This document shows positions 36,058 through 63,527 of a stretch of 64,000 nucleotides of DNA, piece by piece. The stretch is from the NCBI GenBank assembly GCA_903873485.1, contig CAIQOO010000101.1, forward strand, positions 19,492 to 83,491, read 5' to 3'. How positions within the stretch are numbered: position 1 is the first letter of the stretch; every line of letters starts with the position of its first letter. A program made the translations under genes and the position numbers. The notes under the pieces were generated by a model. That model was not told the DNA's origin. It did not search any database and was given only the letters and a program-made list of their open reading frames with translations. The stretch is from an uncultured beta proteobacterium (lineage in GTDB: Bacteria > Pseudomonadota > Gammaproteobacteria > Burkholderiales > Burkholderiaceae_C).

Positions 36058-39000
36058 ATGGCGATCACAGACACTCTGATCCAGGCTATTGAATGGCAAA
36101 CCCAGGGCAATCTTGATGCTGCCGTAGCGGCCTTCAACGAAGTGCTGGCACTTGATCCGAATAGCCCTCACGCACTCTATTCACTGGGCTTGATCGCAAT
36201 GAACGCTGGCGAGTTGACCAACGCCTTGCAGTTGTGCGACCGTGGCATCAACGCTGCGCCAACATTTACCCAGCTTCATTACCTGCGTGCGGCCGTATTG
36301 CAGGCGATGGGGAACAAGGATGCCGCACTGGTCAGTTACGATGCCGCCTTGCAACTTGAGCCTGATCATGTCGAGGTGCTGCTTAACAGTGGTGCCATGC
36401 TGCGCACCATGTTCAGGCACAAGGAAGCCCTGGAGCGGTTCAACAAAATCCTCACCGCCAATCCCAACCACGAGGCCGCTTTGGCCAATTGCGGCATCAT
36501 GCTGACGGAGTTCAAGCAAAGTGAGCCAGCCATTGCCATGTTTGAGCGTCTGATCAAGATCAACCCGGATTTCGACTACGCCCAAGGCTTGCTGTTTTAT
36601 GAGCGCTTGCATATCTGCGACTGGACTGACTTTGAGAAACACAGAACCCAGATTGTGGATGACGTGCGTGCAGGCAAACGCGCCTGCAAGTCGCTGGCTT
36701 TTATGTCGGCATCCGACAATGCCAGTGACCACCTGATAGCGGCAAAGACATTTGCCAGCGCGTACTGCCCCAAAAAAGCACAGTCTTTTTGGCAAGGTGA
36801 ACGCTACCGTCATAAGAAAATTCGCCTGGCCTATGTCTCTCCCGATTTTCGTGAGCACCCGGTGGGCCACCTGATGGCAGGGGTTTTTGAACTGCACGAC
36901 AAAACCCGCTTTGAAACCATCGCCATTTCGATTGGCATAGATGATGGCAGTCGCCTGCGTGCCCGCATGCTCAAAGCGTTTGATAAATTCATTGATGCCC
37001 GCGAGATGACATCAGAGCAAATCGCACGGATGATGCGCGACATGGAAATTGACATTGCCGTGGACTTGGGTGGCTTTACCTCGGACACGCGCACCGACAT
37101 TTTTGCCTATCGTCCCGCCCCGGTGCAAGTTAATTACCTTGGCTACCCCGGCACGATGGGTACTGATTATTATGATTACATCTTGGCTGACCGGCATGTT
37201 ATTCCACCCGAGCATCAGCATTTTTATACTGAAAAAGTGGCTTACTTGCCTGATACCTATTTGCCCACCGACAACAGCGTCAATATTTCAGAGCGAACTC
37301 CAACACGCGCCGAATGTGGACTGCCTGAAACTGGGTTTGTATTTTGTTCATTTAGCCTGGATTACAAAATATCGCCGCCGGTGTTCGATGTCTGGATGCG
37401 GTTGTTAGTACAAGTGCCTGGCAGTGTATTGTGGCTCATGTCACGGGGCCAAACTCCCCAGAGAAACCTAAGAAGAGAAGCTGAAATAAGAGGGGTTGAT
37501 CCTCTTCGATTGGTGTTTGCAGGTCGTGTGCCGTTGGTTGAAGATCATCTGGCGAGATACCGGCAAGCAGATATCTTCTTGGATACCCATCCCTACAATG
37601 CACATTCTACCGCAAGCGACGCGTTGATGGCGGGATTACCCGTGCTAACCTATATGGGAAGTAGCTTTCCATCGCGCGTGGCCGGGAGTTTACTACACTC
37701 CATTGGAATCCCTGAGTTAATTACATACTCGTTGGCCGACTACGAGGCTTTTGCACTTAAATTGGCATTAGATAAAAATGTATTGAAATCAACAAAAGAA
37801 AGAATATTAATCAACAGTTCAGTCAACCAGCTATTCAACACAAGACTTCATTATCAGAACCTTGAAAAAGTATATTTATCATTCCATCAGGAAAAGTTGC
37901 AAGCTGAATCGATTTTTGGGGAATTTTCTCCCTTTAGGCAGACAAATGCGCCGGACATTCAAGAAGAAATTGCCGACTCAAGCGTCTGTGATCACTATAA
38001 GATAGTTATAGACTGTGTCTTCTTTCAGAATTACCAGACAGGAATTGCAAGAGTTTGGAGGTCGCTACTAAAAGAGTGGTCTGACAATGATTTTTCGAAA
38101 CATATAGTTATTCTTAGTCGCGAAAATACAGCTCCTATATTTAATGGGTTTCGGTATATCAATGTTCCGTTGCACAATTATGATGATATGGAGTCTGACC
38201 GCATAATTATCCAGCAGATATGCGATGCAGAACGTGCATCACTTTTCATCTCAACTTATTATTCTATGCCAGTTTCAACACCAAGTTTGATGATGGTACA
38301 TGACATGATTCCGGAGGTGCTAGGTTGGGACACGGCTAATACACCAATGTGGCATGAAAAGCATAGGGCTATTCTGAATGCGCATCGTTTCTTTGCAGTT
38401 TCCCAGAATTCTGCAAATGATTTGCGACGCTTTTTCCCATCTATTGCGGCCGACCGCATAACCGTTACGCATAATGGTGTCGATCTTCACCGGTCTGGAA
38501 AACAAATCGTCAACCGTTTTTTAAAGGATATCGGCATTGATCGCCCGTATTTCCTTTTGGTTGGTGGACGCAGCAGTTACAAAAATGCGACTCTTTTCTT
38601 TTCTGCATTTGAACAATTCGGTGAACGTCGCAAGGATTTTTCAATTCTATGTACGGGGCCGCAAGAAGAACTTGAGGCAGAGTTCCGCTCGCGCGTAGGC
38701 GATGCAAAAGTTTACTTACTTAACCTTTCTGAGGATGACCTCCAGTCTGCTTACAGTGGTGCGATTGCTCTCATTTACCCTTCTCTTTACGAAGGATTTG
38801 GCATGCCAGTTATTGAAGCTATGGCCTGCCACTGTCCGGTCATCGCTTGTCCGAACAGTTCCATTCCCGAGATTGCCGGCGACGCTGCGATATTTGTTGG
38901 CGGACAGGATGTGGCAGGGATGTTGGAGGCACTTCAACAGGTTCGGAAACCACAGGTTAGGAGGCATCTGACCAAGAAAGGTGCACTCCAAGCAAAGAGA

Positions 39001-39465
39001 TTTTCATGGAAGAAAATGGCAAAAGATATTAGCACTGAAATTGGATCTGTGGTGCTCGCTTTGGCTCATACGACACCAACAGAAACACCATTGGTCCGGA
39101 ATGCGCGAAATAAAGTGGACGTGCAGGATATCAACTTTGCAGTTGAATTGTTGCAGTCCGGTAAGAGCATCCTAGCCAACGACGCGGCAATTAAGATTTT
39201 GGAAACTGAGCCAGAGAATGCTGTCGCCCTCCACATGTTGGGCTTACTGGCCTATCAAAAGGGCGACTTCAGCGAGGCAATTCGATTAATTGGTACTAGC
39301 CTGATGTTCTCAGATAGTGTGCCAGAAGCGTACATTAATCTTGGCTGCGCATATGCCTCTGTCGGGAATCACGAAGCTGCAATTGACAGTTTTTCCAGCG
39401 CTCTACGTCTGAGTCCTGAGCTTGAAATCGCTCGCCGCAACTTGGAAATTCTTCGAAGCACTTAG
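36058..39465 (+). CDS. Multidomain glycosyltransferase: TPR + OGT/SPINDLY (GT41) + GT4 + C-terminal TPR
   Basis: TPR repeats; [28 protein letters not shown]...[85 protein letters not shown]; GT4 [38 protein letters not shown]. Confidence 0.88.
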   Translation: [1135 protein letters not shown]

Positions 39466-40694: not shown

Positions 40695-40727
40695 ACCCGC
40701 TTACCTCACACCTTTATGGAGAATTTC

Positions 40728-46875: not shown

Positions 46876-46935
46876 ATTGGAATTGTGCGACAATAACGAC
46901 GCTATAGACCGCAGCTCCAATGCATTTCTGGTGAA

Positions 46936-47499
46936 TTATTTGCTGGATGTGTCTGCCAGAATGGTGAGCGCAAGCAGTGCAATATCTGGCAAAAGGCATA
47001 TATTTTCATTCATAATATGTTGCCGAACCTGCATGGAATCAAGAAAAACCAGCTCGCATGATTCCATTTCGTCATCGAGTGGGTCGTTCGTCTTGATTAT
47101 GGATCGGGCATGAAAGAAATGTGCGCGACAAATCCCACGTGTTCCGTCCACGACAAACGAACCAAGTCCCTGCCAATAGCTAGAACAGTAGCCTGTTTCC
47201 TCTAGCAACTCGCGTTGTGCTGCTTGGTCAGGGATTTCGTTCGGCTGGATTCCGCCTGCGGGAGATGTGAGAACAAAACGGCCCACAGACGGCTTGAATT
47301 GCCTTTCCAGTAATACCCTTCCGTCATTATCTTGGGCACATACTATTGCGTAATCCTGGGATTCGATTCTGTAGTAGTCATCTATAATTCTCCCGGAGGG
47401 CAGCTTAATGCAGTCACGAAGCACAGAAAACCAAGGTGGTAAATTCAGTACATGATGTGTTGACAAGATATTCCAGGGTCTCATTGGGTTGAAATTCAT
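46936..47499 (-). CDS. NUDIX hydrolase (nucleotide-sugar pyrophosphatase-like)
   Basis: Nudix box GGIQPNEIPDQAAQRELLEETGY. Confidence 0.85.
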   Translation of the reverse strand: MNFNPMRPWNILSTHHVLNLPPWFSVLRDCIKLPSGRIIDDYYRIESQDYAIVCAQDNDGRVLLERQFKPSVGRFVLTSPAGGIQPNEIPDQAAQRELLEETGYCSSYWQGLGSFVVDGTRGICRAHFFHARSIIKTNDPLDDEMESCELVFLDSMQVRQHIMNENICLLPDIALLALTILADTSSK

Positions 47500-47854: not shown

Positions 47855-48871
47855 ATGAAACAGAAAAAAGCGCTTATCACCGGAGTTACCGGGATGGTGG
47901 GGTCTCATCTTGCAGACTTCCTGCTGGCAGAAACCGACTGGGACATCTTTGGCATGTGCCGGTGGCGCAGTCCGCTGGACAATGTCTCTCATTTGTTGGA
48001 CAGAGCCAATCGGGGTGATCGGCTCATTTTTGTTGCGGGCGACTTGCGTGACTACATCTCCCTGATGAATGCGGTGGAGGAGGTTCGTCCTGACTATGTA
48101 TTCCATCTGGCGGCCCAGAGTTATCCCAAGACCAGTTTTACGTCGCCACTGGATACGCTCGACACCAACATTCTGGGGACGGAGCGCTTGCTGGAGGCGT
48201 TAAGGCGCGTTCAAGGAATAGACCCCGTCATTCATGTGTGCGCTTCATCGGAAGTCTATGGACGGGTTCCCCGAGAAAAATTGCCGATCAATGAAGACTG
48301 CAGCTTTCATCCGGCTTCCCCCTATGCGATATCCAAGGTTGGGACGGATTTGGTGGGGCGGTACCATGCCGAGGCGTATGGTCAGCGGGTGGTGACAACG
48401 CGTATGTTTACGCATACCGGGCCACGGCGCGGGGATGTGTTTGCGGAGTCGACCTTTGCCAAACAGATCGCACTGATTGAAGCAGGGCGCATTCTGCCTA
48501 TCATCAAGGTGGGCAACCTGGATTCTTTGCGTACCTGGGCGGATGTGCGTGACGCGGTGCGCGCTTACTACCTGTTGGTGACGACAAATCCCATACCCGG
48601 CGAGTCGTACAACATCGGTGGGGACTATTCCTGCACGGTGCGTGAAATGCTGGATTTTTTGTTGTCCATCTCAACGCATCCAGGCATTAGGATAGAGGTT
48701 GATCCGGAGCGCCTGCGTCCCATTGACGCCGACCTCCAGGTGCCTGACACGGCGAAGTTTACGCAGCATACAGGCTGGAAACCAGTGATTGGATTTGAGC
48801 AAACCATGCGCGATCTCCTGAATTATTGGCGTGAAAGAATTGCTGCAGGCACCATGGTTTTGACGCGCTAG
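47855..48871 (+). CDS. GDP-mannose/GDP-heptose 4,6-dehydratase-like SDR
   Basis: KKALITGVTGMVGSHLADFLL; FHLAAQSYPKTSFTSPLDTLDTNILGTERLLEALR; SPYAISKVGTDLVGRYHAEAYG; TRMFTHTGPRRGDVF. Confidence 0.82.
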   Translation: MKQKKALITGVTGMVGSHLADFLLAETDWDIFGMCRWRSPLDNVSHLLDRANRGDRLIFVAGDLRDYISLMNAVEEVRPDYVFHLAAQSYPKTSFTSPLDTLDTNILGTERLLEALRRVQGIDPVIHVCASSEVYGRVPREKLPINEDCSFHPASPYAISKVGTDLVGRYHAEAYGQRVVTTRMFTHTGPRRGDVFAESTFAKQIALIEAGRILPIIKVGNLDSLRTWADVRDAVRAYYLLVTTNPIPGESYNIGGDYSCTVREMLDFLLSISTHPGIRIEVDPERLRPIDADLQVPDTAKFTQHTGWKPVIGFEQTMRDLLNYWRERIAAGTMVLTR

Positions 48872-48910
48872 GCGTTCGGTTTTATTTCATGGGTTGTATT
48901 GGAGTGTGCA

Positions 48911-49426
48911 ATGAAAGTCGAAAAAACAAAACTTGATGGCGTATTGCTGGTCAAACTGGAGGTATTTGAGGATTTTCGCGGTCAGTATGTGGAAACCTAC
49001 AATGAAGCCATTTACCGGGAGCATGGCGTGGATATGCACCTGGTTCAGGATGATATTTCTGTATCTTCGCGCAATGTGTTGCGCGGCATTCATGGGGATG
49101 CAGAAACATGGAAACTGATTACTTGTCTGTATGGAAGCTTTTACCTTATGGTTGTGAATAACGATGCTGACTCACCGCAGTATCGCCAGTGGCAGGGTTT
49201 TACGTTGTCAGACACCAACAGACATCAGGTGCTTGTACCTCCAAAATTTGGCAATGGTCACCTAGTGTTGAGTGAAAAGGCCATATTCCACTACAAGCAA
49301 AATACCTACTATAACCCGGCAGGCCAGTTCACTATAGTGTGGAATGACCCCGCCGTTGGTGCCTGGTGGCCTGTGGATAATCCGATACTTTCGCGTCGCG
49401 ATCAGGCTGGACATTTTGTAAATTGA
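48911..49426 (+). CDS. dTDP-4-dehydrorhamnose 3,5-epimerase (RmlC)-like cupin epimerase
   Basis: FEDFRGQYVETYNEAIYREHGVDMHLVQDDISVSSRNVLRGIHGD; HLVLSEKAIFHYKQNTYYNP. Confidence 0.8.
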   Translation: MKVEKTKLDGVLLVKLEVFEDFRGQYVETYNEAIYREHGVDMHLVQDDISVSSRNVLRGIHGDAETWKLITCLYGSFYLMVVNNDADSPQYRQWQGFTLSDTNRHQVLVPPKFGNGHLVLSEKAIFHYKQNTYYNPAGQFTIVWNDPAVGAWWPVDNPILSRRDQAGHFVN

Positions 49427-49474: not shown

Positions 49475-50425
49475 ATGTTCCATAATTCCAATGTCTTGGT
49501 GACTGGCGGTACAGGGTTTGTGGGTGTTAACTTGATCCGGCGGCTGCTTGGCATGGGTGCCAATGTGACAGCAACTCTCCATCGCAGGGATGCAGTGATT
49601 CATGGTGACCGTATCCATTACATTCGCGCAGATTTACGCCAACAGGAAAACTGTCAGGCAGCGGTGCGTGGTGCAGATTATGTATTCATGTGTGCAGCAC
49701 ATACCTCGGGTGCTGCAGTCATAGAAAATACACCACTGGTGCATCTGACACCCAACATATTGATGAACATCAGCATGCTCGATGCTGCGTACCAGGCGGG
49801 CGTCAAGAAATTCCTGTTTATCAGCAGTAATGTGGTGTACCCATTGACAGATTTCCCGGTTGCCGAGGACGATGTAACCAATCTATTTTTCGAGAAGTAC
49901 CATATATCAGCCTGGATGAAACGCTTTACCGAGATTGTGTGCGAGATGTACGCCACCCGGATCAAAAATCCCATGAAGGTATGTGTGGTGCGCCCTGCCA
50001 ATATGTATGGTGAATTTGACGATTTTGAATGGGAAACATCGCATGTAATTCCTGCGCTGGTGCGCAAGGTGGTGGAACGGCACGATCCGATTGAAGTATG
50101 GGGCGATGGCAACGATCTCAAAGAGTTTATTTATATCCAGGACTTTGTGGATGGAATGCTGCTGGCAATGGAAAAACTGGATGGATTTGTTCCCATCAAT
50201 ATCGCTGCCGGACAACCAGTCACTGTCAAAGAGGTGTTGCAGTGGTTGCTCAAAATAGATGGCTATGCAGATGCAAAAATCAGCTTCAATACTGCAAAGC
50301 CTTCCATGATTCCAAAACGGCTGATTGACATTTCAAAGGCACAAAAGATGCTGGGGTTTCGTGCATCAACCTCTCTGGATGAGGGTTTGCGCAGAACTGT
50401 ACGTTGGTATAGGGAATATTTTTAG
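49475..50425 (+). CDS. NAD-dependent epimerase/reductase (GDP-fucose-synthase-like SDR)
   Basis: SNVLVTGGTGFVGVNLIRRLLGMG; VRPANMYGEFDDFEWETSHVIPALVRKV. Confidence 0.75.
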   Translation: MFHNSNVLVTGGTGFVGVNLIRRLLGMGANVTATLHRRDAVIHGDRIHYIRADLRQQENCQAAVRGADYVFMCAAHTSGAAVIENTPLVHLTPNILMNISMLDAAYQAGVKKFLFISSNVVYPLTDFPVAEDDVTNLFFEKYHISAWMKRFTEIVCEMYATRIKNPMKVCVVRPANMYGEFDDFEWETSHVIPALVRKVVERHDPIEVWGDGNDLKEFIYIQDFVDGMLLAMEKLDGFVPINIAAGQPVTVKEVLQWLLKIDGYADAKISFNTAKPSMIPKRLIDISKAQKMLGFRASTSLDEGLRRTVRWYREYF

Positions 50426-51506: not shown

Positions 51507-52499
51507 ATGATGATGCAATCTTTCGTGAGGCAGCCTCTTGAGGTTTCGCTGTCACTGTACCGAACGCTGTTTCTCGCCCGGCGTTGCGAGGAATATATTG
51601 TCAAAATCTATCCGGATGACAATATGAAAACCCCGATGCATATGTCCATGGGGCAGGAGGCCGTGTCCGTGGGCGTATGCAAGGCACTTCATGGCAGAAG
51701 CGACGTGATGGCCAGTTACCGCAGTCATGCGGCCTATTTGGCACAGACCGAAGACTGTGTTTCATTTTTTGGCGAATTACATGGAAGGGTCAATGGAACC
51801 GCCAACGGCAAAAGTGGCTCCATGCACCTGGCGGATATTCCCAGGGGAATGTTGGGCTCTACCGGCATCGTAGCTGCGGGGATTCCTGTGGCGATGGGGG
51901 CGGCCTATGCCAACAAGCAAAGGGAACCGGGACGTGTTGCCGTGGCATTTTTTGGCGATGGTGCCACCGATGAAGCTGCATTTTGGGAGTCACTCAACGC
52001 ATCCTGTTCCATGGGACTTCCGATGCTGTTTGTTTGCGAGGACAACGACCTTGCAGTCCATACGAGAAAGGCGCAACGCCAAGGGTTTAAGTCCTTGTCT
52101 GCCGTGGTTCGCCAGTACAACTGCCTGGTTTTTGAAGACGGTACGAACGATGTTGAAAGCATTTATGCCATGGCAACCGAGGCCGCAGCTCGGGTGTTTT
52201 CTGAGGGGAAACCTGCATTTTTGAGTGTGCGTACGTACCGTTATCTTGAACCCTGCGGCACCAGCATGGACAGCACAGCGCCCTACCGCAAGCCAGAGGA
52301 AGATGCTTTTTGGAAAAACCGGGACTGCGTGTTGCTGCAACGCAATCGTTTGCTGGGTCTGGGAGTTTTAGAAACTAATCTATTGGCGATGGAAAATGAA
52401 ATCAACCAAGTCATTGAAGCCAGCATAGATGCGGCCAAGGCTGCTGCGCATCCCAGTGCAGAACTGCTGCACCATGGAGTGTTTTATGAGACAAATTAG
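51507..52499 (+). CDS. Pyruvate/acetoin dehydrogenase E1 alpha-like TPP enzyme (copy 1)
   Basis: MHMSMGQEAVSVGVCKAL; GRVNGTANGKSGSMHLAD; VAFFGDGATDEAAFWESLNASCSMGLPMLFVCEDND. Confidence 0.88.
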   Translation: MMMQSFVRQPLEVSLSLYRTLFLARRCEEYIVKIYPDDNMKTPMHMSMGQEAVSVGVCKALHGRSDVMASYRSHAAYLAQTEDCVSFFGELHGRVNGTANGKSGSMHLADIPRGMLGSTGIVAAGIPVAMGAAYANKQREPGRVAVAFFGDGATDEAAFWESLNASCSMGLPMLFVCEDNDLAVHTRKAQRQGFKSLSAVVRQYNCLVFEDGTNDVESIYAMATEAAARVFSEGKPAFLSVRTYRYLEPCGTSMDSTAPYRKPEEDAFWKNRDCVLLQRNRLLGLGVLETNLLAMENEINQVIEASIDAAKAAAHPSAELLHHGVFYETN

Positions 52500-53526
52500 T
52501 TTTGCATCGGCTATTCAGGAGGCATTGTCCCAGGAAATGGCCATTGACCCGTCCGTATTTGTGTATGGCATTGGGGTTCCGGATTTCAAGGGAATATTTG
52601 GAACCACGCTGGGTCTTGCGGAAAAATATGGTTCGGATCGGTGCTTTGATACTCCGCTGAGTGAAGATAGTATGGCCGGATTCGCCCTAGGTGCGGCTTT
52701 GAAGGGGATGCGACCCGTACATAACCATATCCGGGTTGATTTTCTTCTTTTGGCGATGAATCAAATCGTTAATATGATATCCTGCCATAACTATATGACG
52801 GGTGGACACGCGCCTGTGCCCATCGTAATGCGTGCAATTATTGGGCGCGGCTGGGGGCAGGGTGCGCAGCATAGCAAGAGTTTATTTTCCTATTTCACCC
52901 ATATTCCCGGATTAAAGGTCGTCGCACCGACCACTCCCAAAGATGCCAAAGGGCTTTTGATTGCGGCAATCCGCGACAATAATCCGGTTATCTTTCTGGA
53001 ACATCGCTGGTTGCACTGGATAGAGGGTGATGTCCCCGAAGAATCTTATGAGATACCCTTGGGTGTTGCCAATGTTTTGCGGGAGGGAATTCATCTGACA
53101 GTGGTTGCGACTTCGTGGATGAATGTGGAGGCAGTTCAGGCCGCAACCCTGCTCGCTGCACAGGGTATCCATATTGAAGTGATTGACCCGCGCACCTTGG
53201 CACCTTTGGATATTCAGCCGATCGTTGCATCGGTGCAAAAAACAGGCCATTGTCTGGTGGCAGATTATGACTGGGTGCATTCCGGGTTTAGTGCGGAGGT
53301 GGCAGCCCAAGTGAGTGAGCTGTGTTTTGGTGTACTGCGGCAACCTGTGCGCCGCATTGGTTTTGCGCATACGCCCTGTCCTACCGTGCGCACATTAGAA
53401 AATCATTTTTACCCGAATGCGGAAACGATTGTGCGAGCGGTGGAAGACATGCTTGGGCGTCCTCGGATGGATTTGAGTACCGTTGACTTTTTAAGCCACG
53501 AGCGGCGGTTTCGAGGGCCATTTTGA
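52486..53526 (+). CDS. Pyruvate/acetoin dehydrogenase E1 beta-like TPP enzyme (copy 1)
   Basis: ISFASAIQEALSQEMAIDPSVFVYGIGVPDFKGIFGTTLGL; DTPLSEDSMAGFALGAAL; GWGQGAQHSKSLFSYFTHIPGLKVVAP. Confidence 0.88.
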   Translation: MRQISFASAIQEALSQEMAIDPSVFVYGIGVPDFKGIFGTTLGLAEKYGSDRCFDTPLSEDSMAGFALGAALKGMRPVHNHIRVDFLLLAMNQIVNMISCHNYMTGGHAPVPIVMRAIIGRGWGQGAQHSKSLFSYFTHIPGLKVVAPTTPKDAKGLLIAAIRDNNPVIFLEHRWLHWIEGDVPEESYEIPLGVANVLREGIHLTVVATSWMNVEAVQAATLLAAQGIHIEVIDPRTLAPLDIQPIVASVQKTGHCLVADYDWVHSGFSAEVAAQVSELCFGVLRQPVRRIGFAHTPCPTVRTLENHFYPNAETIVRAVEDMLGRPRMDLSTVDFLSHERRFRGPF

Positions 53527-53586
53527 GCAGTTTGAGCCATTTTGATTTACACGCTGATTTTTACCCATTCTGGAATTAAACCTGCC

Positions 53587-54516
53587 ATGTCCTCCACCCT
53601 GACTGTCGCCGATTTTGCCGATTTGTTTGGTATTGATGCCAATACGATGCCTGCGGTTTGTATTGAAATGATCCAGTCACGCAATTGGGCCTATTCGCCC
53701 TATTCGCAGACTGAGCGCGACAAATTGATACTTGACTTCCTGGGGCGTATTCGCAACCGCCAGTTTTCGGTGGTGGCCGAGGGCGATAAAACCCGCTGGC
53801 TGGAAGGTTGGGGTGAAAACCTGAAGGAATTTCAACTGTCGAGCGGAAATCTGAATGCATTGTTGCCGCGCTATATTCGTCCCCATATGCCGGTGCGGTT
53901 GTATGGTAATTTTGTCAAAACCGAGGATCCATTTTTCGAAAAACAATGGTACGAGGTTTTTCGGGAGTGGCTGTTTCTGACATTTTTCCGGAGGTTTGAC
54001 CACATATTTGAATTCGGTTGTGGTTCCGGATTTAATGTGGCGCGGCTGGCGGAGTTATATCCTGCGGCGACGATTCATGGTCTGGACTGGGCGCAGCCAT
54101 CGGTCGAAATTGTTGAAAACCTGCGATCCTTGAAAGGTTTGAATACGCACGGGCATCTTTTTGATTTTTTTGAACCCGATTACAGTCTGGATATTCCTCC
54201 CAATTCGGCAGTGGTGACGATTGGTGCACTGGAACAGACCGGGGAAAATAATGTTAAGTTTTTGCAGTTTCTCATGGATAAACGGCCTGCGTTAGTTGTG
54301 CATGTGGAGCCTACTTACGACTGGTATGACCCGCACTCGCTGGTCGACCATTTGGCCATCACCGCACATGAACTCCGCAATTTTTGGCGTGGCTACCACA
54401 AGCAGTTACTAAATCTCAAGGAGCAGGGGCTGGTGGAAATTCTCAAGACCAAGCGTGCCCATTTTGGCAGTCTGGTGCTGGAGGGGTATTCGCAGACGAT
54501 CTGGCGGCCTGTGTAA
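53587..54516 (+). CDS. Class I SAM-dependent methyltransferase
   Basis: FDHIFEFGCGSGFNVARLAELYPAATIHGLDWAQPSVEIVENL. Confidence 0.75.
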   Translation: MSSTLTVADFADLFGIDANTMPAVCIEMIQSRNWAYSPYSQTERDKLILDFLGRIRNRQFSVVAEGDKTRWLEGWGENLKEFQLSSGNLNALLPRYIRPHMPVRLYGNFVKTEDPFFEKQWYEVFREWLFLTFFRRFDHIFEFGCGSGFNVARLAELYPAATIHGLDWAQPSVEIVENLRSLKGLNTHGHLFDFFEPDYSLDIPPNSAVVTIGALEQTGENNVKFLQFLMDKRPALVVHVEPTYDWYDPHSLVDHLAITAHELRNFWRGYHKQLLNLKEQGLVEILKTKRAHFGSLVLEGYSQTIWRPV

Positions 54517-54525
54517 GGTGGTGCC

Positions 54526-55308
54526 ATGGATTTTGGATTGATCGGAAAGCGTGCCTTGGTGACGGGCGGTAGCCACGGTATCGGGTTGGCTACTGCGATT
54601 GCGCTGGCGCGAGAGGGGTGCGATGTGGCGATTTGCTCCAGAAGCGATGATCGGCTGGCGTATGCTAGGGAGGTGTTGCAGCCATTCCAACGCGAGGTGA
54701 TTGCACGGCCTTGTGATGTCCATTCGGGCGAGTCGATCCAGGCGTTTTGCACTGAGGTGATCGGGACATGGGGCGGGGTCGATATTCTCGTCAACAACGT
54801 TGGTGGCGGTGGTCGGTGGGGGCTTGCCAGTGTGGAAGATACCGATGAGAAAGTCTGGATGGATGTGTACGAAAAAAATGCGCTCGCCACCATCCGTTTT
54901 ACGACCCGGATGCTTCCCTTTATGCGTGCAAAAAAATGGGGGCGAGTCGTGACGATTACCTCCCGTTTGGGGCGCGAGGGTGGCGGGCGTCCATGGTTCA
55001 ATATGGCCAAGGCGGCACAAACCAGCATGATGAAATGCCTGGGGATGAACCATGATTTGGCCGGGGATGGCATTACTTTCAATAGCATCGCGCCGGGCAA
55101 CATCATGATTCCGGGTACGGGGTGGGAAGATGAAATGAAGCGTGATCCGCACGGGTTCCAGAGCTATGTGGCGCAGGAATGTCCATTGGGGCGCCTGGGA
55201 ACCCCCGAAGAAGTCGCGGCGGTAGTTGCGTTTATTTGTTCAGAACAGGCAGGGCTTGTGAATGGCGCTGCCATTGCTGTGGATGGCGGTGAAAGTCGGG
55301 CGTTTTAA
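54526..55308 (+). CDS. Short-chain dehydrogenase/reductase with Phe at the YxxxK tyrosine position
   Basis: GKRALVTGGSHGIGLATAIALAREG; VDILVNNVGGGG; RPWFNMAKAAQTSMMKCLG; C-term GLVNGAAIAVDGGESRAF. Confidence 0.85.
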   Translation: MDFGLIGKRALVTGGSHGIGLATAIALAREGCDVAICSRSDDRLAYAREVLQPFQREVIARPCDVHSGESIQAFCTEVIGTWGGVDILVNNVGGGGRWGLASVEDTDEKVWMDVYEKNALATIRFTTRMLPFMRAKKWGRVVTITSRLGREGGGRPWFNMAKAAQTSMMKCLGMNHDLAGDGITFNSIAPGNIMIPGTGWEDEMKRDPHGFQSYVAQECPLGRLGTPEEVAAVVAFICSEQAGLVNGAAIAVDGGESRAF

Positions 55309-55416
55309 CGGCTGCGATACACCTGAATTGATAGCGGTTTGAACTACGTTTGATTGATGCGGCAATGGGTGCGGGGAGGTATGCTGCTAATCCCTCGCCA
55401 TCTCTCAGGAGCCGTT

Positions 55417-55665
55417 ATGAAAATTGTTGTTGATGTACCAAACCACTATTTGGATGCCATGCACCGCGCACCGCAAGATTTTGCCAATGAGGCCAAATTG
55501 GCGATGGCGGCCAAGCTGTTTGAAATGGGGCGCTTGTCTTCCGGCATGGCCGCCAGCTTGATCGGGCTCGACCGCGTCACCTTCTTGGCGCAGTTGCAGC
55601 GCTTTGGCGTGCCCATGATGGACTTGGATGCTGAAGAACTCGCTATGGATGTGCGCAATGCCTGA
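55417..55665 (+). CDS. UPF0175-family small protein (putative antitoxin)
   Basis: ANEAKLAMAAKLFEMGRLSSGMAASLIGLDRVTFLAQLQRFGVPMMDLDAEELAMD. Confidence 0.8.
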   Translation: MKIVVDVPNHYLDAMHRAPQDFANEAKLAMAAKLFEMGRLSSGMAASLIGLDRVTFLAQLQRFGVPMMDLDAEELAMDVRNA

Positions 55666-56149
55666 GCGCAACCCAGTGCTGGTGACCAATACCACGCCGC
55701 TGATCGCCTTGGTCGCGGCTACGGGGAGTTTGGATATTTTGCAATTTTTATACCGTCGGGTCGTTGTGCCGCTGGAAGTTGCGCAAGAAGTGCGAGTTGG
55801 TGGGCAGCAGTCTTTTGGCGTGGATGTGTTTAACCGTGCCGACTGGCTGGATATCCAAAGCACACCAGTCCCACTGCAGCCATTTTTGAAGAATTCTTTG
55901 GATGTTGGCGAAGCCAGCGTGATCCAAACTGCTATGAATTTGGAGTTGCCTCTGGTGTGTATTGATGAAACGGCTGGCCGACGCGTTGCGCGACTGTGTG
56001 GCTTGACCTTGACGGGCTCAATTGGCGTTTTGCTCAAGGCGCAGCGTTTGGGCTACAGCATTGCGATTCCCCATGCTCTACAGCGCATGCGTGAACATGG
56101 CATTTGGCTCAGTGACAAAGCGGTGCAGTTCGCCTTGACGCAAGCTTGA
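55658..56149 (+). CDS. DUF3368/PIN-like protein (putative toxin)
   Basis: VLVTNTTPLIALVAATGSLDILQFLYRRVVVPLEVAQEV; LDVGEASVIQTAMNLELPLVCIDETAGRRVARLCGLTLTGSIGVLLKAQRLG; overlaps the antitoxin by 8 nt. Confidence 0.8.
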   Translation: MPERNPVLVTNTTPLIALVAATGSLDILQFLYRRVVVPLEVAQEVRVGGQQSFGVDVFNRADWLDIQSTPVPLQPFLKNSLDVGEASVIQTAMNLELPLVCIDETAGRRVARLCGLTLTGSIGVLLKAQRLGYSIAIPHALQRMREHGIWLSDKAVQFALTQA

Positions 56150-56169
56150 ACTACACACGCACCACGTGG

Positions 56170-56335
56170 ATGGCGGTGGTCGGTGGGGGCTTGCCAGTGT
56201 GGAAGATACCGATGAAAAAGTCTGGATGGAGGTGTACGAAAAAAATGCACTCGCTGCCATTGCGGTGGATGGCGGGGAAAGTCGGGCGTTTTGAATGGCC
56301 GAGATGAACCTGAATTGATAGCAGTTTGAACTACG
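56170..56335 (+). pseudogene. Degenerate, internally deleted partial copy of the SDR gene 54526-55308 and its 3' flank
   Basis: 56170-56260 matches 54803-54893 and 56256-56335 matches 55267-55346 with a few mismatches. Confidence 0.85.
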
Positions 56336-56412
56336 TCAATTTGCCACTAGCCTACATTAAACAAGCGCATCATGCTATTGTTTTGCGTGTATATTTCTAA
56401 AGTCTTGGCGCA

Positions 56413-57420
56413 TCACATCTTGGCAAGGTCCAGTCCTTGGGGTGGTGTTGGCGACGCAGGGTGTACGAAAAAGCGGGTTATTCCATGCTCTTCCAAGATG
56501 GCATCCATCAATCGGGTTGGCAGCGTTCCCTTCTCCACGGCCTGTACATTGCGTGAAACCTCGTCCTCTGTCAGCATTCCGGCGAGTACGGTGGCGACCC
56601 CTTGAAATGAAAAACAGAACCTGAGTGCGGCTTCGTACAGTGGGCCGGCACCGTGCTGCTGAACCAGCCGCGCGAACAGTGCACTGCCTTCGATCCAGCA
56701 TTCCCGTTGCGCCACGGGCCAGCCAAGCCGGTGATCTCCGTCCGGAAAAACCGTAGTACGGTCAATGTGTCCGCTGAGGAAGCCAAAACACAGCGGTGTG
56801 CGGGCGATCAGGCATTGTTGATGTTCTTGCAGTCGTGTCAGCAGTTGGCACTCCTGTGCACGGATGTCCATCATGTTGAAATTGGACTGAATGGTCGCTA
56901 TCTCGGGATGATCCTGAAGTGCCAATGCATCTTCCGGTGAGCGCACTGATACCCCCAGTGCACGTACCTTGCCTTCCGACACGAAAGTATTCAGGGTGTT
57001 CAGAATATCCGGTTGCGTTTGCAGCCAACCCGTTGGAGGATTATGAAGTTGCAATATATCCACATATTCGGTCTGAAGTCTGCGCAGGCTATTTTCCAGA
57101 GAAGCACGCATCCCTTTGGCCGAAAAATCGGACGGGCCGTCATAGGAATTCCAGCCGACTTTGGTGGCTATAATTACGGAATTACGCACAGATTTGAAGG
57201 CCCGCCCCAGCAGGGTTTCACTGTGACCAGCTCCGTAGACATTGGACGTATCAAACAGCGTTATTCCAGATGCCGCAGCGTGGTGCAAGGCACGCAACGA
57301 TACTTTGTCATCGGTTTCCCCATAAGACGTGGCACCGGGAGTCCGCCCGCCAACTCCCCATGCGCCAAATCCAAGCACTGAAACTTCAATAGGGGTTTTG
57401 CCGAGTCGCTGGTATTGCAT
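56413..57420 (-). CDS. Aldo/keto reductase family protein
   Basis: MQYQRLGKTPIEVSVLGFGAWGVGG; LFDTSNVYGAGHSETLLGRAFK; VDILQLHNPP. Confidence 0.87.
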   Translation of the reverse strand: MQYQRLGKTPIEVSVLGFGAWGVGGRTPGATSYGETDDKVSLRALHHAAASGITLFDTSNVYGAGHSETLLGRAFKSVRNSVIIATKVGWNSYDGPSDFSAKGMRASLENSLRRLQTEYVDILQLHNPPTGWLQTQPDILNTLNTFVSEGKVRALGVSVRSPEDALALQDHPEIATIQSNFNMMDIRAQECQLLTRLQEHQQCLIARTPLCFGFLSGHIDRTTVFPDGDHRLGWPVAQRECWIEGSALFARLVQQHGAGPLYEAALRFCFSFQGVATVLAGMLTEDEVSRNVQAVEKGTLPTRLMDAILEEHGITRFFVHPASPTPPQGLDLAKM

Positions 57421-57427
57421 GGGGTTC

Positions 57428-59401
57428 TCAATAATGGCCCGCCAACTGGCGTTCCGAGGTTTTGTTGGAATACAGATAGGCACCCTTCTTGTTACCCCAC
57501 CAGACCACCTCGCGGCACCAGCGCTGCAAATCATCATAGTATGCTGCGGATCTTTCCACGTGCACTGTGGTTGGTTTTTTCTGTATTTCTGCCATTTTTC
57601 CGGAACGTATGTTCTGGTAAAAACTGATCAAATCAAAATCCAGGTCAACATGAATGTCGGAGGTTACACCGGGTTGTTTGATGAGTGCAATATTCAATTT
57701 CAGGGCATCCGCAAGCACATGTTGCGCCATTGACTCTGGATTCTCGACCAGTTGGCTGCGCAGCAGGCGATCGGCTTCTTCGTACAAAGCGGCCAGACGT
57801 CCTTCCACGGATAATCGGATAAACTGGAATTCATCTGCCGGCCAATAGATACCAAGGTATTCTTTGGAATAGACATATTCCGAACCGCCCTGCTGGATGG
57901 AGCTGGCTTCCTGCAAAAAGAAATCCCTTATCTGCGCAATCAGCGGATAGTCGTCCGCGCTGACGTTCATGAAGGATTCAATCAATTCACCATAATGCAT
58001 TCCGGTACTTTGGTGCTGCACCATCAAGGGTATCTGCATGATTTTGTCAAAGTACAAAAACGCGGTCATCCAACTGAAGGCACGTGTACGCCGCCACTCT
58101 GCCGGTGGGGTGGCGTGTGTGCTGATAACAAGTTCCTGGTATTCGGCAACATCATCTTCGGACACCAGCTTTTCACCGTGAATATTGATGATCTCGGAAC
58201 GAACCACCTGGATGCCATATTGTTTCTGGTAGGCCGGATTACCCATCTCGGCATTGGGCAGGATGGACAGGTTATTGAACTGAATTCGGTTGTGCTGTCC
58301 ATCCTGTATCAGGCGACTGACCCCGGCTACAAAGGTCTGGTAGGTCTCTCCGGGCAGACCCAAAATCAGATCACTATAGGTTTCCACTCCGTCCAGCGTA
58401 AAACGCCGCTGCAGTTCGGAATAGGTCGCCGTGGAGATATTGTCGCGTTTGATCGCAACCAGTGTCGGCATGTCAACGCTTTGCATGGATAATGCAACGC
58501 CCTTGTTCAGTCCGGCATCGGAAAGTATTTTTTGGGCCAGATAGGCGCGTTCCGTGGCATTTTTGGTATTTTGAACCGACAGTGCCACGGGATATCCGGT
58601 TTTGGCTTTGACCTTTGCTACATATTCTGCAATTTCAAGATCGCGCTTTTGAATCCCAAAATTGGCATCGCAGCAGAAGATATATTGAATTTTTTTGTCG
58701 GCAAACCAGTCGGCTTCGGCCATCAGGCGATCCATGCCAAACTTCGTCACTTTGGCCGCTGTAGCTGATCCCCAATCACAAAAGGTGCAACGAAACGGAC
58801 AACCACGGTTGGTTTCCCACAGTCCAATCCAGGCTTCGTGGGGATTGGCTGCCATCAGGGTATCGAACGTGCCTTCCAGGAAGGGCGAAGGAACTTCATC
58901 CAGCTCCCTGAACCGCTCACGTGCCGGGGTGCGTATATAGTTTGAAGCGGCATCTACGAAGCTGATGCCCGCAATGGTAGCCCAGTCCCGGCAGGGGAAC
59001 TGGTCCAAAATCTCCACAAAGGTTTTTTCGCCCTCATTGTGTACCGCAAGGTCAATAAAGGGGTTTTGACGCAACCAAGGCTCAGGTAAATCCGGCACAT
59101 GCGGCCCGCCCAACACGATCAGTATGTCCGGTTTGGCGGCTTTCAATCTGCGCGCAATTTCCAGAGAAATTTCATGGTTCCAGACATACACACTCAAGCC
59201 CACAATGTCTGCGATTTTCAGTCGCTCCACGATGGTGGTGATGGATTCCCGTTTGTATATTCCCGGCAGAAAATGCAGCCGGCCCGGATTGCGGGCATTC
59301 TTTTCTGCATACACCTGCAGCAGACCCGTCGAATAGGGGAGGTAATTCTGGCCTGAAAAACTGTTGTTGATTTGAACCAGACCGACGCAAATATGTTCCA
59401 T
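57428..59401 (-). CDS. B12-binding-domain-type radical SAM protein (second)
   Basis: PDILIVLGGPHVPDLPEPWLRQNPFIDLAVHNEGEKTFVEIL; NRGCPFRCTFCDWGSATAAKV. Confidence 0.87.
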   Translation of the reverse strand: MEHICVGLVQINNSFSGQNYLPYSTGLLQVYAEKNARNPGRLHFLPGIYKRESITTIVERLKIADIVGLSVYVWNHEISLEIARRLKAAKPDILIVLGGPHVPDLPEPWLRQNPFIDLAVHNEGEKTFVEILDQFPCRDWATIAGISFVDAASNYIRTPARERFRELDEVPSPFLEGTFDTLMAANPHEAWIGLWETNRGCPFRCTFCDWGSATAAKVTKFGMDRLMAEADWFADKKIQYIFCCDANFGIQKRDLEIAEYVAKVKAKTGYPVALSVQNTKNATERAYLAQKILSDAGLNKGVALSMQSVDMPTLVAIKRDNISTATYSELQRRFTLDGVETYSDLILGLPGETYQTFVAGVSRLIQDGQHNRIQFNNLSILPNAEMGNPAYQKQYGIQVVRSEIINIHGEKLVSEDDVAEYQELVISTHATPPAEWRRTRAFSWMTAFLYFDKIMQIPLMVQHQSTGMHYGELIESFMNVSADDYPLIAQIRDFFLQEASSIQQGGSEYVYSKEYLGIYWPADEFQFIRLSVEGRLAALYEEADRLLRSQLVENPESMAQHVLADALKLNIALIKQPGVTSDIHVDLDFDLISFYQNIRSGKMAEIQKKPTTVHVERSAAYYDDLQRWCREVVWWGNKKGAYLYSNKTSERQLAGHY

Positions 59402-59424
59402 GGCATGCTCCGAATATATTCAGC

Positions 59425-60498
59425 TCAGAACGGCCCTTTGAAGCTTTTGTAAAAATCAGTCATGGCCTTGTGCTGTGGAATGATTACACCATGCTCTATT
59501 TTCCCCCGTACCAGTCGGGCCACGGCATCAATGGTTCGGTGCAGATCAGGGTAGTAAATATCTTCCAGCGCCTTGGCGGTGGGACAGGGTGCCGCAGCCA
59601 TTCCCAGATTGACGACCGGGGCTTTGAGCACGGACGGATCGGTCTCCGCGACGATACGGCATACCTCCGCCGCTACGCCATAGGCCAGCCACGAGGTGTC
59701 GGCAACCAGCAATCGACCTGTTTTTGCAACGCTGGACATGATGAGGGCACGGTCCGGGTTGGAGATGTTGTGCAGGTCAATGACTTCGCATTCGATCCCA
59801 AAATCGGCCAGATAGGATGCAGCGCGAAGCGCTTCCAGCACCATGATGGAGGTGGCCACAATGGTTACATCACTGCCTTCGCGTGCCAGTCTGGATGCCA
59901 GAGGGTTTTCTACCGGGGGCCGGTTGCTGGTATCAAAGGCCAGGTCGTACATCAACCGGTGTTCAAACACGATGACAGGCCCCTTGTGGTGCGCCACCGC
60001 ATGTGCGTAACTTTGCACTATCGCATCCGGGGTGGAGGGCATCAACACCAGCAGTCCCGGAATATGGGCAAACAGCGATTGCAACGACTGTGAGTGCTGC
60101 GCGCCTTGCCCCCAAGACCTGCCAATGACCATGCGCACCAACATCGGAACACGAAACAGCCCGCCAAACATGTACCGGTATTTGGCCGCCATGTTGATGA
60201 GTTGGTTCATTGCCAACAAGCCAAAATCAGCGCGGATATGGGTATTGATCGGGTACAGACCGGTCAAGGCTGCGCCCACGCAGATGCCGGTGACTGCGTC
60301 CTCAGACAGGGGTGTTTCAATGACGCGTCCGGGAAATTCGGTACGCAAATTGGTGGTGGTGCCAAAGATGCCTTTGAAGTCGCAAACGCCTTGGCCAATA
60401 AGGATGGTGTTCGGATGGTCGGTCAATGCGCTGCGCATGGCAACGGCCAAGCCGTCGCGGTAGGTGGCGATTGCTGGAAGTCTGTGAGGTGTGTTCAT
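59425..60498 (-). CDS. Pyruvate/acetoin dehydrogenase E1 beta-like TPP enzyme (copy 2)
   Basis: TILIGQGVCDFKGIFGTTTNL; ETPLSEDAVTGICVGAALTGLYPINTHIRADFGLLAMNQLINMAAKYRYMFGG; SWGQGAQHSQSLQSLFAHIPGLLVLMP. Confidence 0.88.
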   Translation of the reverse strand: MNTPHRLPAIATYRDGLAVAMRSALTDHPNTILIGQGVCDFKGIFGTTTNLRTEFPGRVIETPLSEDAVTGICVGAALTGLYPINTHIRADFGLLAMNQLINMAAKYRYMFGGLFRVPMLVRMVIGRSWGQGAQHSQSLQSLFAHIPGLLVLMPSTPDAIVQSYAHAVAHHKGPVIVFEHRLMYDLAFDTSNRPPVENPLASRLAREGSDVTIVATSIMVLEALRAASYLADFGIECEVIDLHNISNPDRALIMSSVAKTGRLLVADTSWLAYGVAAEVCRIVAETDPSVLKAPVVNLGMAAAPCPTAKALEDIYYPDLHRTIDAVARLVRGKIEHGVIIPQHKAMTDFYKSFKGPF

Positions 60499-60516
60499 GG
60501 CAAGTGGGCAACAGGT

Positions 60517-61506
60517 TCAGATGACATCGGTCAGCAGTTCGGAGATGTCGGGCACAGGGCTGGCCTCGGCAAAGGCGACGGCGGCTGCAATTTCTGTATC
60601 CAGTTCCGGGCGCAGTGCATGGATCAGGGCCGCGTCCTGGCACAGGGCATCCTCGGCTTTCCATGCATCCATGTCCGCTTGTGAGCGGTACCCGGCAGCA
60701 AAGTCTTCGCCTGGCCCCACATGCTCCTTGTAACGGCAGGTGATGACCTCCAGCAACCGGGGTTTTCCATCCTGGCGAATGGCTGTGGCGATGCTGGCGG
60801 CGGCATCTCCCACTTTGAGAAAATCCCAGCCTTCTTCCAGCCGCATAGACTCTATTCCATAGGCTCGGGCGTGTTGGTGTATCTGATAAGACTGGCGTTC
60901 AGCCAAATTGGCGTGTACTGCCAGACCGTTGTTTTCGCAGAGAAAAAATACGGGCAGGCTGTACAAGGCGGCAAAGTTCAAGGACTCGTGGTAGGTTCCC
61001 TGCTCGGTGGCACCATCGCCGAAGCACACCACGCTCAATCCATCCTTTTTTTGTATCCGGTGGGCCAAGGCGGCACCCACGGCCAGCGACAGGGTGGACG
61101 CAACCACCGCCGAAGCGCCCATCACGCCCACACTAGGGGCCGCCAAGTGCATGGAGCCCGCCTTGCCTTTGGAAACGCCGGTAGCCCGACCATACAACTC
61201 GGCCATCATCAGGCGCAAATCGCCACCTTTAGCGAGGTAGAACGCGTGGCCGCGGTAGGTGATGAACAGAAGGTCTTCCTTGCGCAAGGCTTCGCAGACA
61301 CCTACTGCAACCGCCTCCTGGCCGATGGACAGATGCATCGGGCTCTGAATTTTGTCGAAAGGGTACAACTCGATGAGTTTTTCTTCCACAAGTCTGATTC
61401 TGAGGGCTTCCCGAAACAGTTTTCGGTAGCGTTGGATATCCGATGGCGGCGTGTGCATGTCGTGGGATGGCGATTGCGGGAAGATCATTTGCTGATAAGA
61501 CCTCAT
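60517..61506 (-). CDS. Pyruvate/acetoin dehydrogenase E1 alpha-like TPP enzyme (copy 2)
   Basis: SPMHLSIGQEAVAVGVCEALRKEDLLFITYRGHAFYLAKGG; VVCFGDGATEQGTYHESLNFAALYSLPVFFLCENNGLAVH. Confidence 0.88.
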   Translation of the reverse strand: MRSYQQMIFPQSPSHDMHTPPSDIQRYRKLFREALRIRLVEEKLIELYPFDKIQSPMHLSIGQEAVAVGVCEALRKEDLLFITYRGHAFYLAKGGDLRLMMAELYGRATGVSKGKAGSMHLAAPSVGVMGASAVVASTLSLAVGAALAHRIQKKDGLSVVCFGDGATEQGTYHESLNFAALYSLPVFFLCENNGLAVHANLAERQSYQIHQHARAYGIESMRLEEGWDFLKVGDAAASIATAIRQDGKPRLLEVITCRYKEHVGPGEDFAAGYRSQADMDAWKAEDALCQDAALIHALRPELDTEIAAAVAFAEASPVPDISELLTDVI

Positions 61507-61750: not shown

Positions 61751-62749
61751 ATGATCGTCAGCAGGACACCGTTTCGCGTCTCATTTTTTGGCGGCGGTAC
61801 CGATTATCCGGCCTGGTATAAGGAAAATGGTGGGGCGGTACTGAGTGCATCCATCAACAAGTACTGCTACATCACCTGCCGCCATCTGCCCCCCTTTTTT
61901 GACTACAGATACCGGATACGGTATTTCAAGCGGGAGGAGGTGAATACCATTGATGAAATCGAACATCCGACGGTGCGCGAGAGCCTGCGCCTCATGCAAT
62001 TGGACAAGGGACTGGATATTGTTCACCACGCCGATTTGCCAGCGCGCACCGGAATGGGGTCGAGTTCGACCTTCACCGTTTGTCTGCTGCATGCACTGTA
62101 CGCGCTCAAGCATGAGATGCCGACCAAGCGGGAACTGGCCTTAATGGCCATTCATATTGAGCAGAATTTGCTGAAGGAAAATGTGGGCTCGCAGGATCAG
62201 ACTATTGCGGCTTTTGGCGGATTTAACCGGATTGATTTTGGTGGGCCGCAGGAGTTTGCGGTAACGACCCTAATAGTGGATCCAGCTAAACTTGCATCGT
62301 TGCAGGCGCATTTGATGCTGTTTTTCACGGGATTTCAACGAACAGCTTCTGAAATTGCGAGGAAACAGATTGAATGTATTCCGGCGAGTACGTCCAATCT
62401 AAGGCAAATGATGGAAATCGTGGAAGATGCGCAAAGAATACTGACCAGCCAAAACCGCAGCATTGCCGAATTCGGGCTGCTATTGGGTGAGCAATGGCGG
62501 ATCAAGCGAAGCCTGACCGCCCAGATTTCCAATCCTGAAATTGATGCCATTTACGACAACGGCATGAAGGCCGGTGCCATTGGTGGAAAACTGTTGGGTG
62601 CCGGAGGCGGCGGGTTTGTGCTGTTTCTGGTGGAGCCCGATCATCAGGAATCTGTGCGCCGTGCCCTCAGCAATCTGTTGTATGTGCCCTGCCGGTTTGA
62701 CCATCTGGGAAGCCAGATTATTTACCATGTCAAAGATGATGATTACTGA
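61751..62749 (+). CDS. hddA: GHMP kinase, D-glycero-D-manno-heptose 7-phosphate kinase-like
   Basis: MIVSRTPFRVSFFGGGTDYPAWYKENGGAVLSASINKYCYI; LPARTGMGSSSTFTVCLLHAL; GAIGGKLLGAGGGGFVLFLVEPDH. Confidence 0.8.
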   Translation: MIVSRTPFRVSFFGGGTDYPAWYKENGGAVLSASINKYCYITCRHLPPFFDYRYRIRYFKREEVNTIDEIEHPTVRESLRLMQLDKGLDIVHHADLPARTGMGSSSTFTVCLLHALYALKHEMPTKRELALMAIHIEQNLLKENVGSQDQTIAAFGGFNRIDFGGPQEFAVTTLIVDPAKLASLQAHLMLFFTGFQRTASEIARKQIECIPASTSNLRQMMEIVEDAQRILTSQNRSIAEFGLLLGEQWRIKRSLTAQISNPEIDAIYDNGMKAGAIGGKLLGAGGGGFVLFLVEPDHQESVRRALSNLLYVPCRFDHLGSQIIYHVKDDDY

Positions 62750-63527
62750 ATCCGTGCAGGCTGTGGACGCACTTATTTTATGCGGAGGCCTAGGGAGCCG
62801 ACTGAAAAGTATGTTTCCGGATCGGCCCAAAGGTCTCGCCTCAGTGGCCGGAAGACCGGTGCTGGACATTCTGGTGGATGACCTATTGCAGCAGGGATTT
62901 CGAAGAATCATTCTCTGCGTTGGACATATGAAGGAGCAAATTATTGGATATTATGAACATCGTAAAGATGCACAATATATATTCTCATGTGAAAATGAGC
63001 CTCTGGGAACCGGGGGGGCGGTTGCACAGGCACTTCCCCTAGTGAGCGGGGAGTCCATGCTGATCATGAATGGGGACTCTTTTTGTCGGGTGGACTATTC
63101 TGGGCTCGTTCAGTTTCACCAGGCAAGAAAAGCACTAGCATCGATTGTGCTAGTGACTGCGGATGAGCGCAGGGATTGCGGCGTGATTGTAATGGGCGAG
63201 GAGGATCGTATTCTTTCCTTTAGCGAAAAACCGTCCGTACAGGAACCGGAAGGCGAGTTTATCAATGCTGGAGTGTATTTGTTGCAGAAAAAGGCTTTTG
63301 ACAAAGTTCCCTGGAAAGTGCCATTTTCACTTGAGCAGCAACTGTTTCCTTCGCTGGTGGATAGTCGGCAGTGCTATGGCATTTTCGTGGCCGGCACTGT
63401 GACGGATATTGGAACGCCAGAAAGGTATCTTAGCGCCAATGCCGCAGTAGTGCAGTCGCATTGTGCGATGAATATAGATGCTGGTGCTGACAAAGCAACA
63501 CGTTTCCTCAGATATTGTTTTGACTGA
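62727..63527 (+). CDS. hddC: Sugar-1-phosphate nucleotidyltransferase (HddC-like)
   Basis: VDALILCGGLGSRLKSMFPDRPKGLASVAGRPVLDILVDDLLQQGFRRIILCVGHMKEQI; MIMNGDSF; overlaps hddA-like kinase. Confidence 0.7.
   Translation: MSKMMITESVQAVDALILCGGLGSRLKSMFPDRPKGLASVAGRPVLDILVDDLLQQGFRRIILCVGHMKEQIIGYYEHRKDAQYIFSCENEPLGTGGAVAQALPLVSGESMLIMNGDSFCRVDYSGLVQFHQARKALASIVLVTADERRDCGVIVMGEEDRILSFSEKPSVQEPEGEFINAGVYLLQKKAFDKVPWKVPFSLEQQLFPSLVDSRQCYGIFVAGTVTDIGTPERYLSANAAVVQSHCAMNIDAGADKATRFLRYCFD

Follow-up and report, generated by a model that had tools for sequence, protein, structure and literature searches.

The window analysed here is a stretch of 64,000 nucleotides from an uncultured beta proteobacterium (contig CAIQOO010000101.1), which carries at positions 56413-61506 a minus-strand module of four genes. 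These encode the alpha and beta subunits of an E1-like thiamine diphosphate (ThDP) enzyme, a cobalamin (B12)-dependent radical S-adenosylmethionine (SAM) enzyme and an aldo/keto reductase (AKR). We propose, with a probability of about 0.7, that these genes carry out carbon branching and processing of the branch within a nucleotide-sugar pathway, which would make a two-carbon (C2)-branched, C-methylated 6-deoxyheptose for surface glycans. The proposal draws on gene content, on co-occurrence of the genes elsewhere, on the clade and C-terminal tail of the E1 proteins, on the relationship of the radical SAM enzyme to TokK, including its key tryptophans, and on a heptose-type dehydratase in the same cluster.

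The genes follow one another in the order E1alpha, E1beta, radical SAM, AKR, with intergenic gaps of 18, 23 and 7 nt, a spacing that is operon-like. A first-pass annotation had described four tightly packed minus-strand genes of these families between plus-strand blocks, and this is borne out by the coordinates, by the gaps of 7-23 nt and by Pfam, where all four families score above the gathering cut-offs. The flanking coding genes (54526-56149 and 61751-63527) are on the plus strand. Contrary to the claimed overlap, the AKR ATG at 57420 sits 7 nt downstream of the radical SAM stop (57428). A scan for promoters and terminators found no excess over shuffled sequence. The claimed extent of the module is correct in its coordinates but not in its limit to four genes, as the conserved set also takes in a second E1 pair, a short-chain dehydrogenase/reductase (SDR), GDP-sugar enzymes and an HddA-like kinase (Table 1).

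The two E1 pairs and the branching reaction

In maximum-likelihood trees, orphan E1 proteins separate from those linked to 2-oxoacid dehydrogenase complexes with support of 100/100 for the beta subunit and 100/99 for the alpha subunit, and both pairs of the window are on the orphan side. No E2 or E3 gene lies near either pair. In addition, a C-terminal extension ending in F[KRTA]GP[FYL] is present in 25 of 26 orphan E1beta proteins and in none of the 14 that are complex-linked; this tail would hinder docking of an E2. The window has complex-free E1alpha and E1beta genes that retain ThDP and catalytic residues and stand in a sugar cluster, as is characteristic of alphaKADH2 enzymes, the pyruvate-dependent, ketone-branching E1-type pairs specialised for C2 branches and known from antibiotics (PMC12247030). 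Here, the E1 heterodimer would decarboxylate pyruvate on ThDP and add the acetyl unit to a sugar ketone, leaving a tertiary alcohol that bears an acetyl branch, as in the antibiotic class. The AKR may then reduce the branch ketone to a hydroxyethyl group, or it may reduce another carbonyl. For this step the functional precedent is Pau7 of paulomycin biosynthesis, an AKR of a different group, which reduces the branch after Pau11/Pau12 have acted (PMC4753412, PMC4425429).

The first-pass annotation recognised no pathway in this combination of genes. The combination of E1alpha/E1beta with an AKR follows the logic of paulomycose, and orphan E1 pairs are a recognised sugar-branching class. The paulomycose module of Streptomyces paulus also clusters a complex-free E1alpha/E1beta with an AKR, a 3,5-epimerase and a nucleotide-sugar 4,6-dehydratase; it differs in serving an antibiotic, in using a TDP-hexose and in the AKR group (AKR5I), and no B12 radical SAM enzyme is reported for it in PMC4425429 or PMC4753412. 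The alphaKADH2 enzymes of aldgamycin, kosinostatin, kibdelomycin (KbDH) and avilamycin (AviB1/B2) are likewise two-subunit, E1-type ThDP enzymes of deoxysugar pathways, in which the branch is subsequently reduced, methylated or transaminated (PMC12247030). These are reported for specialised metabolites, whereas the present set lies in Gram-negative surface-glycan or flagellar loci and probably uses GDP-heptose. Branching of 4-keto-deoxysugars for Gram-negative surface glycans is known from YerE and ErwE of lipopolysaccharide (LPS) synthesis (yersiniose, erwiniose), but these are single-chain ThDP enzymes of the decarboxylase superfamily. A YerE-like enzyme is rejected here, as the E1_dh domain and the Transket_pyr/Transketolase_C domains are divided between two genes.

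The two pairs of the window fall into different subclades, each with its own orthologue in Reyranella, and a recent tandem duplication is rejected on these grounds. As a speculation, the second, distinct pair and the SDR could add and process another C2 unit or serve a different sugar. Further orphan pairs of the clade are found in nucleotide-sugar clusters of Azospirillum and Solidesulfovibrio plasmids (L108, L109, L110, L113), beside DegT aminotransferases, a setting that would fit transamination of the acetyl branch; these clusters probably make acetyl-branched, aminated sugars. One more orphan pair is on a Streptomyces plasmid.

The radical SAM enzyme and recurrence of the gene set

The GGPHV and CPFRCTFC motifs noted in the first-pass annotation are both present in the radical SAM protein, and the cluster loop is CX3CX2C. 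Among solved structures, a sequence search finds only TokK (7kdx, 316 bits; 356 bits with a profile) and CysS (210 bits). W74 and W210 align with TokK W76, the axial Trp, and W215, the Trp after the cluster loop, which are key residues of TokK-type enzymes (PMC9692996, PMC12846815). With its B12-binding and radical SAM domains, the protein has the features of a TokK/CysS-type C-methylase, and its sequence supports well an assignment to the cobalamin radical SAM methylases. It is called TokK/CysS-like because it scores 279 bits with the KedN5 subfamily model (NF033712), below the curated cut-off of 700. Domain order, the CX3CX2C loop, the axial Trp and a Trp two residues past the last Cys are shared with TokK, CysS and KedN5, whose known substrates differ, being carbapenam and aryl-ether thioesters. 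TokK and CysS are iterative C-methylases, and CysS acts on O-methyl groups. The window enzyme may methylate, once or more, an unactivated carbon on the sugar, its branch or an O-methyl group; a sugar carbon as target has a precedent in GenK (PMC4039129). Solved relatives, TokK and pyruvate dehydrogenase E1, cover the folds of the radical SAM and E1 proteins.

A second B12-binding radical SAM protein, a distant relative of that in the module, is encoded in the same glycan cluster (40716-42311, plus strand). A TokK-like protein on a Sinorhizobium medicae plasmid (L046, 32% identity) was set aside, as its context, an NRPS-type (nonribosomal peptide synthetase) cluster on conjugative plasmids, is unrelated.

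A scan of 84,980 species genomes returned six close relatives of the radical SAM protein, all from Reyranella or Alphaproteobacteria/Rhodospirillales. The four-gene set recurs in Reyranella (5-6 genomes), in two further alphaproteobacterial genomes and in one proteobacterial genome that is more distant. Its usual companions are an RmlC-like epimerase, a sugar epimerase/reductase (EPI), a GDP-heptose-type 4,6-dehydratase and an HddA-like kinase. The five Reyranella loci with enough flanking DNA (L003-L007; the L002 locus is incomplete) have the order RmlC-GHMP-4,6-dehydratase, then E1a1-E1b1-SDR-E1a2-E1b2-EPI-RS-AKR, where RS is the radical SAM gene and the final numerals denote the E1 pair. 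The window has the same gene content, but E1a2-E1b2-RS-AKR is inverted. The edge of the inverted segment is marked by a remnant of a second SDR copy (56161-56336, plus strand) between the PIN-like gene described below and the AKR; its two pieces, joined across an internal deletion, match stretches of the SDR at 54526-55308 with 92% and 89% identity. Because the window holds a second E1 pair and an SDR (51507-55308), as Reyranella does, the unit is better viewed as a pathway of approximately 12 genes.

Whole-genome searches added L093, L094, L065 and L101. L093 and L094 each have a single E1 pair, orthologous to pair 2, and in L094 E1a2-E1b2-RS-AKR is contiguous in the same order as in the window, with 4,6-dehydratase, GHMP and RmlC genes in addition. 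The order in L065 is dehydratase-RS-AKR-EPI-E1a-E1b, and L101 has RS-AKR-EPI with a pair-1-type E1 within the same 20 kb. When loci were fetched by radical SAM similarity alone and near-identical Reyranella were collapsed to one, an AKR lay within 4 kb of the radical SAM gene in 10 of 15 loci or lineages at radical SAM identity of at least 45% and in none of the 16 below 36% (p ~7e-5, which is only indicative because the lineages are only partly independent of one another). A C2 carboligase, either an E1 pair or a split transketolase, is present in 7 of the 10 lineages with both genes and in 2 of the 21 others (p ~0.001).

The strongest comparative argument comes from plasmid p2 of Azospirillum sp. 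TSA2s. This plasmid carries the dehydratase (77% identity), EPI, a methyltransferase, NUDIX, the radical SAM enzyme (57%) and the AKR (45%), and in place of the E1 pair the two-subunit ThDP enzyme is a split transketolase. Its radical SAM protein and that of L065, a locus with an E1 pair, are sisters (100/100). As two classes of C2 carboligase share one context, the E1 pair would supply a C2 unit to the sugar. A hydroxyacetyl-branching role has been proposed for split transketolases in Streptomyces, the only genus from which the review reports them (PMC12247030). Gene pairs resembling split transketolases lie at L045 (13459-15100) and L071 (10917-12733), in sugar clusters of proteobacteria that encode TokK-like radical SAMs.

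Table 1. Genes of the module and of the wider sugar cluster in the window
Feature	Coordinates	Strand	Evidence
E1alpha-like subunit (pair 2), orphan two-subunit ThDP enzyme	60517..61506	minus	E1_dh 9.2e-52; GDG...ENN ThDP motif
E1beta-like subunit (pair 2), C-terminal ...SFKGPF tail	59425..60498	minus	Transket_pyr + Transketolase_C
Cobalamin-dependent radical SAM methylase (RS), TokK/CysS-like	57428..59401	minus	B12-binding + Radical_SAM
AKR, YdjG/IolS/GSP69-like, putative branch ketoreductase	56413..57420	minus	PF00248 (Aldo_ket_red) 1e-48
E1alpha-like subunit (pair 1)	51507..52499	plus	E1_dh 2.2e-46; separate orphan subclade
E1beta-like subunit (pair 1), ends RFRGPF	52486..53526	plus	Start set at ATG 52486; domains, tree, tail
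SAM-dependent methyltransferase-like protein	53587..54516	plus	Weak Methyltransf_25/12 matches below cut-off; relatives in L045, L093, L094 (37-42% identity)
SDR, FabG-like	54526..55308	plus	60-65% identity to Reyranella SDR between both E1 pairs
GDP-heptose-type 4,6-dehydratase	47855..48871	plus	68-77% identity to counterparts in related clusters
RmlC-like 3(,5)-epimerase	48899..49426	plus	dTDP_sugar_isom 5.6e-48
Nucleotide-sugar epimerase/4-reductase (EPI)	49475..50425	plus	Epimerase family; relative adjoins radical SAM in most related loci
HddA-like GHMP sugar kinase	61751..62749	plus	Best NCBIfam model HddA, 144.8 bits (cut-off 600); Reyranella relative adjoins 4,6-dehydratase
HddC-like sugar-1-phosphate nucleotidyltransferase	62679..63527	plus	Best NCBIfam model HddC, 127 bits (cut-off 300)
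NUDIX hydrolase	46936..47499	minus	30% identity, weak relation to NUDIX adjoining radical SAM in Azospirillum
TPR + GT41 (OGT-type) + GT4-type glycosyltransferase + more TPRs, large fusion	36058..39465	plus	Directly after fliF-fliR operon

Sugar substrate, destination and genomic setting

The best match of the dehydratase is a GDP-heptose enzyme (380 bits); GDP-mannose 4,6-dehydratases reach at most 147 bits and the next best match overall 192 bits, which points to a GDP-heptose as the substrate. In comparisons with the PDB, dTDP-rhamnose and GDP-heptose epimerases score alike for the RmlC-like protein, and scores do not separate the substrate types of EPI. Relatives of the nucleotidyltransferase in L003, L065 and L093 are fused to a HAD phosphatase, in line with HddC and GmhB, two steps of the pathway in Campylobacter (PMC10680097). 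The Campylobacter GDP-6-deoxyheptose pathways have in common with the window HddA/HddC-like genes, a GDP-heptose 4,6-dehydratase, an RmlC-like epimerase and a 4-reductase, but neither a ThDP carboligase nor a B12 radical SAM enzyme is described there (PMC10680097). A weaker candidate for the sugar is bradyrhizose, as two C2 units on a hexose would give C10, while the dehydratase of the window points to a C7 heptose. In 2016, no bradyrhizose genes were known beyond an eleven-gene cluster with a dTDP-glucose 4,6-dehydratase (PMC4743980).

The sugar cluster of the window comes after fliF-fliR genes and opens with the GT41/TPR glycosyltransferase. In L095-L098, the radical SAM gene is beside fliK, flgD and, in three of the four, flgE/fliF; GT41/TPR genes are present in three of the four. 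GT41 proteins are encoded near the radical SAM gene in L045, L068, L095, L097 and L098. No flagellar genes were found in the 20 kb read of the Reyranella clusters. Because the window and four related loci adjoin flagellar genes, with GT41/TPR genes nearby, flagellin glycosylation is plausible: the product sugar would enter a surface glycan and may be placed on flagellin by GT41/TPR transferases, with the fusion protein of the window as a possible user.

The GC content of the island is 0.41-0.53, compared to 0.57 in the preceding flagellar region, and a search of 398 other genomes of the order gave no full-length orthologue. For both reasons, the island was likely acquired horizontally. Two other features lie in the window. 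Between the SDR and its remnant, a UPF0175 antitoxin-like gene and a DUF3368 (PIN-like) gene (55354-56149, plus strand) likely form a toxin-antitoxin module. An open reading frame at 45301-46920 (minus strand) has no Pfam match and shows ~27% identity over 147 residues to a protein of the Reyranella clusters (L003, 14126-15259), which is equally without assignment.

Weighing of explanations and implications

Several points weigh against the proposed pathway. HddA and HddC are the best-scoring models for the kinase and nucleotidyltransferase, but at 145/600 and 127/300 bits both fall below the curated cut-offs. Antibiotics account for the reported alphaKADH2 examples, and branching in LPS is attributed to enzymes of the YerE type (PMC12247030). 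The E1 tree, built without the characterised sugar-branching sequences AviB, Pau11/12 and KbDH, demonstrates separation from complex-linked E1s. By sequence, the AKR is outside the AKR5 group of Pau7 (AKR5I): its best PDB relatives are 3n2t, GSP69 and IolS, and it scores YdjG 105, GSP69 104 and IolS 100 bits versus 31 for DkgB, in a comparison that did not contain Pau7 itself. To these is added the partial dependence among the lineages counted above. Finally, several radical SAM homologues of 45-60% identity (L095-L100) have no E1 pair or transketolase within ~10 kb, so the enzyme can act without C2 branching nearby.

This last point favours an unlikely alternative, in which the radical SAM enzyme and AKR are a unit of their own that methylates and reduces a sugar or O-methyl group, while the E1 pairs contribute another sugar to that glycan; the clustering would then stem from the common glycan rather than from one pathway. 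In L095-L098 and L068, the radical SAM gene keeps EPI and/or the AKR with no carboligase within that distance; CysS targets O-methyl groups, and the window, L045, L093 and L094 have a methyltransferase-like gene alongside the set. The association of RS-AKR with a C2 carboligase (7/10 versus 2/21) argues for one pathway instead, as does the direct contiguity of pair 2 with RS-AKR in the window and L094.

It is improbable that the E1 pair is an ordinary 2-oxoacid or acetoin dehydrogenase E1, served by E2 and E3 encoded elsewhere, with the other two genes as unrelated neighbours. Among curated models, those for pyruvate dehydrogenase E1 subunits score best, though below cut-off, and catalytic residues are retained. 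The cluster is without E2/E3, whereas the one other E1 pair found in the genome (contig C66) has its own E2; the pairs do not group with complex E1s, their tail occurs in no complex-linked E1beta, and their neighbourhood is conserved. Membership in a dehydrogenase complex is rejected on gene context and tree. That metabolic genes met by chance in a variable island is more improbable by far. The low GC content and the lack of full-length orthologues in the genomes of the order that were searched would fit such an origin, and the first-pass annotation had itself set a lone juxtaposition against its proposal of a module. The neighbourhood search refutes it: several proteobacterial lineages share the set, and L094 preserves the order E1a-E1b-RS-AKR.

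The preferred reading, a C2-branching and C-methylating nucleotide-sugar pathway, can be extended tentatively. Two E1 actions on GDP-6-deoxyheptose, extension by the B12 radical SAM enzyme and branch reduction by AKR and SDR might give an undescribed sugar of at least 10 carbons, transferred to flagellin by an OGT-like enzyme, with E1 pairs and split transketolases as interchangeable branching cassettes; this fuller version is doubtful as a whole.

The literature consulted yielded no description of Gram-negative surface-glycan/flagellar loci that combine orphan E1s with a GDP-heptose 4,6-dehydratase and a TokK-like B12 radical SAM methylase. The TokK-like methylase would be an added step, which is not described alongside C2 branching in the literature cited. 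A C-terminal F[KR]GPF without E2/E3 provides a sequence marker with which carboligase E1s can be picked out from the many E1s that carry a pyruvate dehydrogenase annotation, and the sugar could be sought in the cultured organisms Reyranella soli and Azospirillum sp. TSA2s. Collectively, the findings suggest that antibiotic-type C2 branching, by E1 pairs and split transketolases, would also serve the surface and flagellar glycans of Gram-negative bacteria.

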